In this document: positions 10,557 to 30,378 of the stretch, piece by piece
Layout of the letters: each line of letters begins with the position of its first letter
How positions within the stretch are numbered: the stretch's first letter is position 1
From: Symbiodinium sp. CCMP2592
Lineage: Eukaryota; Sar; Dinophyceae; Suessiales; Symbiodiniaceae
Assembly: GCA_905221615.1 (NCBI GenBank)
Contig: CAJNDT010006017.1
Coordinates: forward strand, 295,001 to 359,000
Length of the DNA stretch: 64,000 nt
Direction: 5' to 3'
The notes under the pieces: generated by a model
Databases searched by the model: none
Told to the model about the DNA's origin: nothing
The model's input: only the letters and a program-made list of their open reading frames with translations
Position numbers and translations under genes: made by a program

Positions 10557-10843
10557 CACACATCACACACACACACATACGCACACACACACACACAAAC
10601 ACGCAAACACACAAACACACACAAACACACAAACACACAAACACACAAAAACACAAAAACACAAACACACACACACACACCCACACACACACACACACAC
10701 ACAGACCCACACACGCACCCACACACGCACCCACACACGCACCCACACACGCACCCACACACGCACCCACACACGCACACACACACACGCACACACACAC
10801 ACGCACACACACGCACACGCACACACACACACACACACACACA
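10557..10843. repeat. CA-rich microsatellite with variant blocks
   Basis: CA dinucleotides with ordered variant zones: ACACAAAC-type units on the left, CACGCACCCACA-type units in the middle, and purer CA at the right, where it meets the terminal repeat of element B. Long His-Thr open frames across it are artefacts of the repeat. Confidence 0.95.
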
Positions 10844-11250
10844 CTTAGACATCCATCGCGCAGCCACTAATCAATCTGATTATCAAGCGCAGCTTGATGT
10901 ATCTCGAAAGCATGAAGCTTCCAGGGGGTCCGGTACCTATCTGGCCTCAAGGCTCATCTTCACTTGATCTCCGACTTATTCACTGTACAAGGCAAACTCC
11001 TCCAAACCTGCACATTCGATTCTATTGGGGTTTTAGGCTTAGCCCCGAGCCATATCACTTGCAACGACACTTGCACAAACACTTGCAGGTACACCAAGCT
11101 GATCAGGCTTGGTTTCCCTCTCTGATGCATAGCTTCGTTGGGTACGGTAGCATCAGAGAGCCGTACCCCCCTGCTATTTTCAGCAATTCAGCACTACTGT
11201 CCAACGTGTATCAAAAACGGTTCCTCTTGGTAACAGAGGTCCACACACAC
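10839..11250 (-). repeat. Element B terminal direct repeat (sense 3' copy)
   Basis: Matches 19052-19463 without indels; differences are C/G at 11076 versus 19289 and A/G at 11144 versus 19357. The right end is a hairpin (CCTCT 11223-11227 with AGAGG 11235-11239) followed by GGTCCACACACAC. The left end runs straight into the CA microsatellite. It contains the structured RNA region 11085-11174. Confidence 0.95.
11085..11174 (-). other. Covarying RNA structure in B terminal repeat (sense 3' copy)
   Basis: Helices in plus coordinates: outer D GCAGG 11085-11089 with CCTGC 11170-11174; C ACCAAGC 11093-11099 with GCTTGGT 11107-11113 around loop TGATCAG; B CTCTCTGATGC 11118-11128 with GCATCAGAGAG 11150-11160; A GGGTACGG 11140-11147 with CCGTACCC 11161-11168. 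A crosses B, so they form a pseudoknot or two alternative hairpins. The loop AGCTTCGTT is shared with family A. Confidence 0.75.
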
Positions 11251-11274
11251 AGTAAGCCACTAAGGCGAAACGAC

Positions 11275-11664
11275 CTAGGGTCTGGACTCCAAACGAGGAC
11301 GGTTTTCGTCCGAATATGGCTCAGCCCAGTGAAAGGTCAATGGTACTGTGTTGTTGACAGTACTGAGTTTGACATAGTACGGTAAATGAGTCCCGCTTTG
11401 CGTGAGTTTAAACGTACGCTTGGGGATGCGATTCCACTCCAAACTAATAGCCTCTTTAAGGTCGTCGATAATGCCTTCGGCCGGAATGTCGAAACATGCA
11501 ACGGTGGCACCATGATGGCGGCCATCAGAAGGCAAATTTTCAATCCAAAATCCTCGGGTCATCCGCAGCGGAGGCAGATGTTTTGGTGTCCGAGGGAGAA
11601 TAAGTGGATCATCATCTTTACCGCCATCAGGTGGAAGCGACGCTTGTGCTGCATCTCGTTTCAT
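11275..11664 (-). CDS. ORF8 of element B, small protein with ubiquitin-like pattern
   Basis: 129 aa, ATG at 11664. It is the last ORF before the sense 3' terminal repeat, the same place as ORF8 of family A. Both begin with M(T)KR-AA-A-LP and end with a hydrophobic strand (VPLTFHW here, MPVLFVR in A). The middle reads DDLKEAISLEWNRIPKRTFK, then a T-x-SGTHL segment, which resembles the helix-turn-strand pattern of ubiquitin-like beta-grasp folds. Sequence identity between A and B is low, so both homology and fold are inferences. Function is unknown. Confidence 0.55.
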   Translation of the reverse strand: MKRDAAQASLPPDGGKDDDPLILPRTPKHLPPLRMTRGFWIENLPSDGRHHGATVACFDIPAEGIIDDLKEAISLEWNRIPKRTFKLTQSGTHLPYYVKLSTVNNTVPLTFHWAEPYSDENRPRLESRP

Positions 11665-27529: not shown

Positions 27530-29527
27530 TCACTGAATGAGGCCGAATCCAACGATGCTGAAATGCCCCGAGTGGAATCCCCACTTCTCTGGGGTCCGCA
27601 CGACACCCTTTCGCCCCACGATGAAAGCTTCTCTGTACATGTCCCGATACGTCATCTTGTAATGCTGATACTTAGTCCGTATTGTCCCGATGACGATCAC
27701 TCCCTGTTGGCCCTTGGGCCGCCGTGTACATTGATCGGTAACTATATGTACCGTGCTTTCCGATACATCTCCTGGGGTCGCATTCCCGTATATGACGCAA
27801 GAGGGAATGGGTGGATAGGACTTGTCGTCGAAGCAATGGCTGACTGAACTTGGGCGGACCAAGTCCTCGCGCATTATGCGCGCGGCACTTGCAATGCTCG
27901 TGCCGTGTCCGGCGGTGTAGATGTATGTTTCCCCTGGTGGGTCGGTGGCACGAGTGCCGAATGCTCTGCGAGTCTCTCCAGCCCACGGGATGAATAACAT
28001 AGTATGTACGCCGTCCGATATTGGCGTCAGCGCTGCCCCCAGTTCGTTGCACGCTGATCGCGTGCCCGACTGTAGCACGGCATGTGCAAATTCGGCTAAA
28101 GTCTCCTGCCTGAAATCGCTGTCAGCAGCTATCTCGCCCAAGGTTTTGGCGAGTTTATGTGCTTCTTCCATGTCGACAGCGTGGGGGGTCGGCTTTTCAT
28201 GATCGTAAAGCTCAGAGAAAGGCGCCACATCAATCTGTGGTGGTCTGCTCTGTTTGCCCAGTTGTTCGAGGGTTGGCTGACCCGATGGGGCAGCAGTTGT
28301 GGATGCATCAAAAATCGGGGCAGGTGTCCGAATAGAGCTGGAGGGATTGTGCTGAACCTGTTGGCGAGAGGGTGTGCCCTGGCCTGTTGGGGGCTGCTGT
28401 TGTGCTGCTTGGCTGCCCTTGATGCGAAGGGCGATTCGCTGAACCTGCGAGGCCAATGTCCTTTGTGGGACCTTGGGTGGGGTAGGTGGCCTCTGACGTG
28501 GCTGTGTGGCTCTGTAATGCCACTTGTTGGCATCATCATCACGCACTGTAGAATAGCTACGGAGCACAACCGAGGTCCGCGGAGGTGTCGACAAAGATTG
28601 TCTGGTGTCCCTGCGAGAACGACTTCTGCGAGTGTCGCGGGATCGGTGGTGTCTGCGTCGGTGGTGGTGTCTCCCGCTGCTTGCCGGTCGTGCTCTGCTG
28701 CGTGTGCGACGTCGGCGCCTAGTGCTCACGGTGCGAGTTCTGCTGCGTGTGGGTGAGCGCCGTCGCCTGCGTGGCAACGGAGGATGGTGGGGAGAAGTAC
28801 GTGCTGCAAACTGGTCGGTGTCTGCCGATCCCGTAGCCGGGGGTGGTTGTGTGGGTGGCAATGTGCTGACGGAGGGGGTGTTGGCTGTGTTTGTTGGTTG
28901 TTGTTGGGGAGTCATTGCCGGTGTCTGCGGGGCAATGTGTGTGGCATCGGTAGTGGGAACACTGGTGGGGTGAAGTTGTGAAGCTTGTTGGAGTGTTGTT
29001 GGCGGCGGTATGTGGGGTTGTTGAGCGGGTTGTGTGGAAGGGATGTTGCAAGGTGCAGGTTGGGGTTGTGGAGCAGGTGGTGTAAAAGGAAGGTTGTATG
29101 TGGTAGGCTGGGGCTGATGCGGTGTCAGAGTTGATGGGCTCGTGGGAAAAACTGTTGGATGGGTAGGCAATAGAGCAGGGTTCAGGAAAGTGGGGGGGTT
29201 TTGTGACATGAATTGCTGGGGTGGAGGTTGTTGTGGTATCTGGGGTTGTGGTGTGCTGAGATGTGTATATACCGTCGGATGCTGTGGAATAGGAGCAGTG
29301 TGTCCACACGGCATCATGGGGAAGCTGTGCGTCTGCTCAACAGGAATCGTAGTGGGTTGTGTCGGCAGTGTGGGCTGCTGAGTGGCAGCAATGCCAGTTG
29401 GCATCATTGCTGGGTAGCTTTGTGACTGCGGTACCCAGGTGTTCGGGTGAAATTGATTCAGCACCGGTCGGGCTGTTGGTGCATATGGTGTTGCTGGTGG
29501 CTGCGCGGCAAAATAATCCGGCCACAT
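27530..29527 (-). CDS. ORF1 of element A copy 2 (Pro-rich, Arg/Ser-rich, HGT-motif domain)
   Basis: 665 aa from the ATG at 29527 (MWPDYFAAQPPATPY); the frame extends upstream to 29671 with no better start. Residues ~1-250 are Pro/Gln/Thr-rich. Residues ~260-330 form an Arg/Ser/His cluster (RRRRSPTRSRTRT, RRHHRSRDTRRSRSRR). The C-terminal ~190 residues are globular with AGHGTSIASAARIM, CVIYGNATPGDVSES, GVIVIGTIR and HSGHFSIVGFG. The family B protein shares the HGT, YG and GVVVGG elements. An ART/PARP-like fold is a weak guess. SR-like tracts suggest nuclear RNA association. It is the first ORF after the 5' terminal repeat. Confidence 0.7.
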   Translation of the reverse strand: MWPDYFAAQPPATPYAPTARPVLNQFHPNTWVPQSQSYPAMMPTGIAATQQPTLPTQPTTIPVEQTHSFPMMPCGHTAPIPQHPTVYTHLSTPQPQIPQQPPPQQFMSQNPPTFLNPALLPTHPTVFPTSPSTLTPHQPQPTTYNLPFTPPAPQPQPAPCNIPSTQPAQQPHIPPPTTLQQASQLHPTSVPTTDATHIAPQTPAMTPQQQPTNTANTPSVSTLPPTQPPPATGSADTDQFAARTSPHHPPLPRRRRRSPTRSRTRTVSTRRRRRTRSRARPASSGRHHHRRRHHRSRDTRRSRSRRDTRQSLSTPPRTSVVLRSYSTVRDDDANKWHYRATQPRQRPPTPPKVPQRTLASQVQRIALRIKGSQAAQQQPPTGQGTPSRQQVQHNPSSSIRTPAPIFDASTTAAPSGQPTLEQLGKQSRPPQIDVAPFSELYDHEKPTPHAVDMEEAHKLAKTLGEIAADSDFRQETLAEFAHAVLQSGTRSACNELGAALTPISDGVHTMLFIPWAGETRRAFGTRATDPPGETYIYTAGHGTSIASAARIMREDLVRPSSVSHCFDDKSYPPIPSCVIYGNATPGDVSESTVHIVTDQCTRRPKGQQGVIVIGTIRTKYQHYKMTYRDMYREAFIVGRKGVVRTPEKWGFHSGHFSIVGFGLIQ

Positions 29528-30006
29528 AGCTGCAACGAAGTGGGTGAAACAAACACAGTTGCACAAGCAAAGTGCAGGCTGTCCTGGTTGTCCCTGCTGG
29601 ACTGATTTGAGAGGTCGTAGACGGAGAGAAGGAAGAGGGCCGAGTACTCTCCGAAGAGAGCGCTGCTTCACTTGCTGTAGACACTGTTACCGCGTCTGCA
29701 CTCATGTCAGATGCACATGCCCTTGCGGTCCCTGAGGAATAAAGAAGCGGTAGAATAGAGGGCAGACTAGCGAGGTAGCACCTGCTCACTAGACGCACTT
29801 TACTGCATTAGCCGTCCCTTACTGCACCTGCACTCATGTCAGACTCACATGCGAGCATCAGAGAGAGAGAGATAAAGTAGCATCGGGAGATTCTGAACGA
29901 TCTGAACGAAGGCTGAACACCCGGTTCATCACCGGTCTCCCCGGAGGGTCACCACGGCGCCATGACGGAAAGCCGTTGCTCTGGAGTCTCAACGACCCAC
30001 GCTGAT
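29528..30006. other. Element A 5' leader between terminal repeat and ORF1
   Basis: About 480 bp in sense upstream of ORF1. It contains a direct repeat of ACTCATGTCAGA with flanking CACATG (29700 and 29833) and a short GA run (29867-29873). No TATA-like signal is evident. Confidence 0.4.
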
Positions 30007-30378
30007 CACACTGATGGATTCGGCCAAGAGTACGAGTGCAAGAGGAAAAGAGAGAGGCATGTTGTTCATGTTGCAAAGTTTTGTCAGATTGTGGCAACCG
30101 TACAACTTGTTTGTCTAATCTGGACACCACAGGGGGCCTGTCCTCAAAACTAATCTTGGCACCACAGGGGGCTGCCATGCAGGTACACAGGACTGATCAG
30201 GTCCCGCTTCCCACTTGCATCCACAGCTTCGTTGAGTGTGGTAGGACGCAAGTGCCACACTCCCCTGCAACAGTTGATTTGGTAAATGTCCAATGCCGGA
30301 TTATGTTGAAAAGCGAAATTGCAAACAGTGTAGGAGTGACCCTCTGCTCCCATGTGCTAGGGAGGTTCACACACACAC
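30007..30378 (-). repeat. Element A terminal direct repeat (sense 5' copy)
   Basis: Identical by eye to 19509-19880. On the plus side it runs into the longest CA tract of the window. Confidence 0.95.
30179..30268 (-). other. Covarying RNA structure in A terminal repeat (sense 5' copy)
   Basis: Same fold as 19681-19770, displaced by 10498 bp; no change seen in any helix. Confidence 0.7.

Follow-up and report, generated by a model that had tools for sequence, protein, structure and literature searches.

A 64,000-nucleotide stretch of the genome of the dinoflagellate Symbiodinium sp. CCMP2592 (hereafter the window; contig CAJNDT010006017.1, positions 295,001 to 359,000) contains a multi-gene retroelement in two families, here called A and B, which is real and recently active. 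We consider it fairly probable that these are autonomous, recently active retroelements, likely of the N-terminal-endonuclease kind of Penelope-like element (PLE), that acquired a gag-pol organisation and follow the readthrough cycle proposed below. The gag-UGA-pol organisation is the most surprising part, and no report of such a multi-gene gag-UGA-pol Penelope-like element was found in the literature among openly licensed papers. A preliminary description of the window had proposed a retroelement with six to eight open reading frames (ORFs) in two diverged families, all ORFs lying on one strand between direct terminal repeats; this was confirmed as a real, multicopy element with about the proposed boundaries. 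The same description was silent on the UGA that lies in frame between gag and pol, on the homogenisation of the terminal repeats and on the CA-repeat sites.

Within the 1.098-Gb genome, the window belongs to contig C5155. The two elements follow each other head to tail, both on the minus strand, family B at 10839–19464 and family A at 19509–30379, and all element features given below lie on that strand. Between them is a CA repeat (19455–19513, not stranded), the presumed insertion site. Element B is bounded by direct repeats of 413 bp; the downstream copy in the coding sense (10839–11251) has a CA repeat at its end and the upstream copy is located at 19052–19464. The direct repeats of element A are 373 bp long and have CA repeat as their last bases, with the downstream copy at 19509–19881 and the upstream copy at 30007–30379. 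An 824-bp CA repeat (30368–31191, not stranded), whose first bases overlap the repeat end, flanks element A. Element B has six ORFs in the coding order gag, GIY-YIG/reverse transcriptase (RT), HGT, ORF6, ORF7 and ORF8, and element A has eight, in the order HGT, gag, GIY-YIG/RT, ORF4, ORF5, ORF6, ORF7 and ORF8. The HGT-domain gene is therefore placed 5' of gag in A (27530–29686, 718 aa) and 3' of the RT in B (12963–14900, 645 aa).

Both families are repeated in the genome. A B probe gave at least 34 near-full-length matches at 80–100% identity, the window copy included (36 matches in all). For family A, the best 40 of 278 candidates were scored with an RT probe and the best 40 of 267 with an ORF7/8 probe, and these counts are lower bounds. 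A second A copy, 98.4% identical, occupies positions 1–5819 and is truncated on one side by the start of the window and on the other by a gap of 100 N (5820–5919). The two window copies are each damaged in one gene (pol in B, gag in A), which is open in other copies. Locus L011, on a second contig (G000:C5130:7600-17000), showed 99.6% identity to window 10554–19936 and is accompanied by an A copy; it may be an allele, a duplication or an assembly duplicate.

Forty full-length terminal repeats were compared; L030 was left out of the end and repeat counts, as only window 12181–17163 was matched there. The two repeats of one copy were 99.5–100% identical (19 full-length B-type pairs), whereas repeats of different copies were on average 88.4% identical (range 73.8–100%, 761 comparisons), or 89.7% without the diverged B-type copies L033 and L034. 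In a wider sample that included the shortened repeats of L013 and L034, 21 pairs were 99.5–100% identical and 25 between-copy pairs had a mean of 84.7% (63.3–99.8%). For 30 of 38 repeats, the nearest or tied nearest sequence was the repeat's own partner, and the other eight were 1–2 bases from the partner and 0–1 from another copy. The A repeat pairs were identical in the window copy and in copy L035/L036. As the repeats are alike within a copy and diverged between copies, they are renewed in pairs at each insertion. This paired renewal would fit either long terminal repeat (LTR)-like strand transfer or copying from a template that is tandem or circular, and not plain end-to-end copying of an RNA whose two repeats are independent.

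The element ends were further examined for their flanking sequence. In all 19 B copies with recognisable ends, a CA run of at least 10 nt touched the right end; at the left end this held for 12 copies, with 2–9 nt in the other seven. Part of this terminal CA is the element's own, because the inner repeat ends carry short CA runs. Of these 19 B copies, 12 had at least 8 nt of CA repeat on both sides within the outer 40 nt beyond the element CA, while 14 had it on the left and 15 on the right. As a background, the adjoining 31.2–64 kb (32,800 bases) contains 48 bases in such CA runs. L033 has CA on both sides, and one of two A copies checked for flanking CA had little of it on the left. Both insertion into microsatellites and pseudo-LTRs, which characterise the PLEs with an N-terminal endonuclease, were thus found here, and the nearly fixed length of the repeats is unusual for pseudo-LTRs.

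Penelope-like elements share ancestry with telomerase. They are counted as the third class of eukaryotic retroelements (PMC11167929), and outside the terminons they are regarded as compact, with one or two ORFs (PMC6431247). The pol protein of family A (22726–25503) is a 925-aa open frame with a CxC linker; that of family B (15000–17719) is frameshifted in the window into two overlapping frames. Among the 19 B copies fetched (L011–L029), 13 have it as a single frame of 906–913 aa counted from the UGA, and L021 as one of 887 aa with a later start. A 925-aa open frame was listed for 57 of the 64 scored A-type pol matches (64 of 1371 candidates), one of them with a stop inside the match. The two pol proteins share ~25% identity over ~850 residues, in agreement with the low protein identity between families that had been described. 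In each, the GIY-YIG endonuclease lies N-terminal to the RT in one protein, and the motif residues VYC, Y(I/V)GST, E and LN.P are kept in both families. The CxC between endonuclease and RT reads CTC in A and CPC in B, and columns C395 and C397 were invariant in five aligned proteins; a motif scan did not find it in the A-type locus L042. RT motif C reads YVDN in both families; of the loci in which it was detected, L037 alone deviates (YVDK). No hammerhead family was detected at E 0.5 in window 1–34000, and a pattern search gave three core-like strings, none in a terminal repeat; the Rfam matches sR43 and ALIL were far under their gathering scores and were taken as chance. From these features, an N-terminal-endonuclease PLE, Naiad/Chlamys-like, is the most likely class as judged from sequence. 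The Penelope-like assignment of the preliminary description was consequently retained as to architecture (GIY-YIG with RT, CxC, CA sites, terminal repeats, no hammerhead), and refined in that the endonuclease is N-terminal and the element is not of the canonical or terminon type.

Homology searches returned only a few proteins, which came from ENA records: three matches with A pol and five with an A and B profile. One of them, P0020, is a more remote pol relative that matches 35% of the query at 42% identity; it has CYV, and YAGCS instead of YIGST, and suggests that there are further families. Unusually long frames over pol were noted at G000:C2806:13308-15140 (2592 aa) and in L030 (1667 aa).

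The obtained class assignment has to be weighed against several observations that do not favour it. The placement, though supported, was derived from architecture. Pfam GIY-YIG was unmatched at E 1, so the endonuclease was called at motif level only, and Pfam RVT_1 gave a match to A that stayed under the curated cut-off and none to B. A change of either Asp of the RT motif is stated to inactivate retroviral RTs (PMC554778), and the motif here is YVDN. The AlphaFold models were poor, with a mean predicted local distance difference test score (pLDDT) of 36 for the RT protein and 32 for HGT; the low-confidence pol model (mean pLDDT 36) shows E106, E118, H130, H151, E168 and H179. As regards insertion into CA repeats, several B copies have little CA outside their own ends, and L034 has a non-CA flank.

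The elements might instead be something other than Penelope-like, either LTR-type or a new class, with a GIY-YIG nuclease replacing the integrase. We regard this as unlikely. The gag-pol order, the single stop and the terminal repeats, nearly fixed in length and homogenised in pairs, would suit such an origin, and YVDN is also reported for Cer7–Cer12 by a study of Pao/BEL LTR elements, which states the activity of YVDN as undetermined (PMC554778). However, Pfam at E 1 gave no match to a protease, an RNase H or an integrase, and the best NCBIfam profile of the RTs was that of group II intron RTs (E 3e-5 and 1e-3 for A copies, 0.08 for B), with a weak match also to the CRISPR-associated RT profile. 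In addition, a GIY-YIG domain before the RT, together with CxC and a microsatellite target, is the signature of the N-terminal-endonuclease PLEs.

A comparison with known systems places the Penelope-like reading in context. Craig et al. are said to have described, in 2021, the Naiad and Chlamys PLEs as having GIY-YIG before the RT, CxC, pseudo-LTRs, a microsatellite bias and no hammerhead. By these features the A and B elements are alike to them, including the position of CxC between the two domains; the CCHH motif, whose absence marks the Chlamys subgroup, was not seen by eye in the A or B endonuclease, for which there was no reference alignment. They differ from Naiad/Chlamys in the gag-like ORF with an in-frame UGA before pol, in four or more accessory ORFs, in homogenised repeats of nearly fixed length and in the dinoflagellate host. 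PLEs are described as unreported in the TSAR supergroup before Ectocarpus (PMC12477816). The terminons of bdelloid rotifers are likewise multi-ORF giants of the PLE class with accessory genes, but are described with telomeric repeat sites and hammerhead 3' ends (PMC6431247), whereas CA-repeat sites and no hammerhead were found here; unlike in terminons, GIY-YIG is here in one frame with the RT. Canonical Penelope/Poseidon elements share GIY-YIG, RT and pseudo-LTRs with A and B, but have a C-terminal endonuclease and one ORF (PMC11167929, PMC3846280), in contrast to the N-terminal endonuclease and six to eight ORFs observed here. An Anolis Penelope-like element is reported with a hammerhead and an AT-rich target preference (PMC3846280). 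Among Symbiodinium retroelements, SymbioLINE and SymbioDIRS with DNA methyltransferases also carry extra genes, but their RT classes and cargo differ from those of A and B (PMC5890265). 

Retroviruses and LTR retrotransposons of the gag-stop-pol type have a leaky stop between gag and pol and paired identical terminal repeats. A and B resemble them in the stop between gag and pol and in their paired, near-identical repeats, and differ in the GIY-YIG endonuclease that stands in place of protease, RNase H and integrase matches.

In both families, gag and GIY-YIG-RT lie in one frame with a single UGA between them. The gag-like ORF of B (17720–18724, 334 aa) is homologous to that of A (BLASTP E 1e-13), which occupies 25504–27352, frameshifted in the window and a single 615-aa frame in copy L036. 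The stop is at 17720–17722 in B, followed by CUAG, and at 25504–25506 in A, followed by CUC. Of 22 B-type loci searched, the 21 with the site found all read TGA CTAG (none was found in L030). The junction was TGA CTC in six A copies (A1, A2, L036, L037, L039 and L040) and TGA CTA in the diverged A-type L038. UGA CUA (G) is the human high-readthrough consensus and regulates Sindbis nsP4 expression (PMC4973966), and it is also given as a known readthrough motif in PMC12233894. By its letters the B stop context is this high-readthrough motif; the cited papers cover UGA CUA(G), not the UGA CUC of family A.

The coding potential beyond the stop was evaluated from the ratio of non-synonymous to synonymous substitutions (dN/dS), calculated pairwise by the Nei-Gojobori method without a tree. 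The first ATG in the pol frame of A is codon 206 in A1, L039 and L040, behind the GIY-YIG domain, and codon 135 in L038. In this region, dN/dS was 0.02–0.06 for codons 1–205 (against L037, L039 and L040), 0.096 for codons 1–134 against L038, and 0.02–0.16 for codons 1–80, where counts are small. The start of A pol is thus selected as protein although it lacks an ATG; translation has to enter it from upstream or at a non-AUG codon, most simply by UGA readthrough. The junction thus reads as a readthrough cassette, with a single in-frame stop, a high-readthrough context and coding selection beyond it, and a Gag-Pol readthrough protein made through a leaky UGA is likely.

Some results speak against readthrough. 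A search for a stem-loop 3' of the stop gave no signal, with z between −0.25 and −1.24 for four junctions and −0.53 and −0.67 for two control stretches, which gives no support to a conserved RNA structure there. Unusual nucleotide conservation at the gag-pol junction was rejected, as its identical run of 58 nt is surpassed by other runs of up to 83 and 114 nt. The features that commonly stimulate readthrough therefore lack support. The pol frame of B has its first ATG at codon 33, before the GIY-YIG domain, and that of the A copy L037 at codon 6, so reinitiation is possible in those. Pol could also be made without readthrough, with translation beginning at an internal or non-AUG codon or with the gag stop bypassed by trans-splicing or splicing of the mRNA, and dinoflagellates do trans-splice (PMC11453091). 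We judge this route rather improbable, since the frame and the UGA-CU context are alike in A, B, L033, L034 and L038, and since the ATG-less pol start of the A copies (A1, L038, L039 and L040) is under the purifying selection described above.

The remaining ORFs of B lie downstream of pol. In addition to HGT, they comprise ORF6 (12562–12819, 85 aa, Trp-rich, with an RSRSP start and a KRKR..SP end), ORF7 (11859–12344, 161 aa, Lys-rich, with a C-terminal CAKMLVRA..RCxCH..C..CPN motif common to A) and ORF8 (11275–11763, 162 aa, without a Pfam match). The pooled analysis used 18 copies (L012–L029); L030 was left out, as was L011 because it resembles a second assembly or allele of the window locus. 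In these copies, the dN/dS of HGT, ORF6 (0.19), ORF7 (0.17) and ORF8 (0.23) was 0.17–0.23 in the true frame, as compared to 0.7–16 in the two other frames. As dN/dS was low in the true frame only, these four frames are not chance. They were free of indels and premature stops in 18 (ORF6), 5 (ORF7), 11 (ORF8) and 11 (HGT) of the 18 copies; among the fetched copies L011–L029, gag formed one full-length frame in 16 of 19 and HGT in 12 of 19. Against L033 and L034 (dS ~0.3, less for ORF8), dN/dS was 0.07–0.08 for gag, 0.11–0.12 for the GIY part, 0.10 for RT, 0.18 for HGT (a comparison between subfamilies) and 0.34–0.44 for ORF8.

In family A, ORF4 (22110–22610, 166 aa) showed a dN/dS of 0.10–0.16 in four comparisons: 0.14 against the diverged L038, where gag gave 0.07 and pol 0.075, and 0.10–0.16 against L037, L039 and L040, where pol gave 0.07–0.17. 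Overall, every ORF of B showed purifying selection (six of six), as did gag, pol and ORF4 of A, the three A genes with diverged copies. The A estimates are weakened by saturation of dS against L038 (1.8–3.1) and by the gag value of only 0.19–0.35 within the family (L037, L039 and L040). A 97-codon 'HGT' match in L040 (dN/dS 0.59) was taken as spurious. The distance between ORF7/8 and RT probes was 3035–3047 bp on all 11 contigs where both best-40 lists had matches within 20 kb. The accessory ORFs had been described as real components, and this held for B by selection and for A by the linkage of ORF7/8 to the RT; the dN/dS comparison across copies proposed with it gave purifying selection for B HGT, B ORF6–8 and A ORF4. 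That they are passengers or host genes trapped between the repeats is very unlikely, and made so for B HGT and ORF6–8 in particular: PLEs are known to trap host DNA between their repeats (PMC3846280), two copies lack ORF6 and ORF7 and HGT is placed differently in A and B, but against this stand the frame-controlled dN/dS values, the fixed spacing and the homology of ORF7 between families.

The accessory set is shared between families only in part. ORF7 of A (20481–21017, 178 aa, Lys-rich, with the same Cys/His C-terminus) is homologous to that of B (E 6e-15, partly low complexity), and ORF6 of A (21290–21523, 77 aa, SR/Trp-rich) resembles B ORF6 by eye only. Homology of the HGT proteins is marginal (profile score 28.3, best of 60 shuffles 26.9); if the two are homologous, their different positions mean that the gene moved within the element. 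ORF8 (19965–20480 in A, 171 aa) gave no significant homology between families (17.7, shuffles 18.2). No counterpart of ORF4 or of ORF5 (21699–21959, 86 aa, coiled-coil-like by eye) was recognised among the B frames by eye, no profile search having been made. The diverged B-type copies L033 and L034 both lack ORF6 and ORF7 as one 1117-bp block (11784–12900), whose limits are identical in the two. The block thus reads as a removable cassette, and the accessory set is not fixed. The retention of the accessory set described earlier is consequently weakened and does not hold in general.

The best match of the B HGT protein was a Symbiodinium sp. CCMP2592 protein (92% identity over 63% of the query), and no Pfam match was obtained at E up to 1 with the full ORF or up to 10 with its C-terminal part. 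A PARP-like ADP-ribosyltransferase, which the HGT motif suggested, received no support, as there was no Pfam match and the solved-structure match was at chance level. An ubiquitin-like ORF8, an idea formed by eye, received none either, from a check of A and B or from a further check of A.

From the frame, the stop context and the selection, a cycle can be proposed in which ribosomes stopping at the UGA would yield Gag, while a minority would read through UGA-CUA/CUC to give Gag-GIY-YIG-RT. The insertion sites suggest that a Gag/Gag-Pol ribonucleoprotein would nick a CA repeat, where the 3' end of the CA strand could pair with the GU tail of the RNA of the element and thereby prime reverse transcription. 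The second terminal repeat would be regenerated in each cycle from one template repeat, as the homogenised pairs indicate, possibly by template jumping or from a tandem or circular template. The accessory genes may serve the same cycle, with ORF6 (SR/Trp) and ORF7 (Lys-rich, Cys/His) as losable helpers of a nucleic-acid-binding-like kind and HGT, which is under selection, taking part as well. The downstream ORFs would probably be expressed from spliced-leader trans-spliced mRNAs; no relic of the dinoflagellate spliced leader (DinoSL) was found in the window at up to three mismatches.

We see about an even chance that a dinoflagellate PLE lineage independently built a retrovirus-like gag-UGA-pol arrangement and LTR-like repeat regeneration, with GIY-YIG replacing the integrase, a removable cassette and a YVDN RT. 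If so, the retroviral gag/pol organisation can arise outside LTR elements, and Penelope-like elements would extend to the alveolates, with a short stop-codon cassette and a defined CA target as a testable system.

Two further features of the window were noted. Beside element A, an open frame on the plus strand (31500–32272) resembles a serine/threonine protein kinase by eye (GxGSFG, HRDIKPDN, DFG) and is probably a host gene or a fragment of one. A satellite of ~15 kb occupies 48614–64000, with a 76-bp unit (CCAACGTCCACCCTTGAG...) and periods of 152 and 228 bp also detected.

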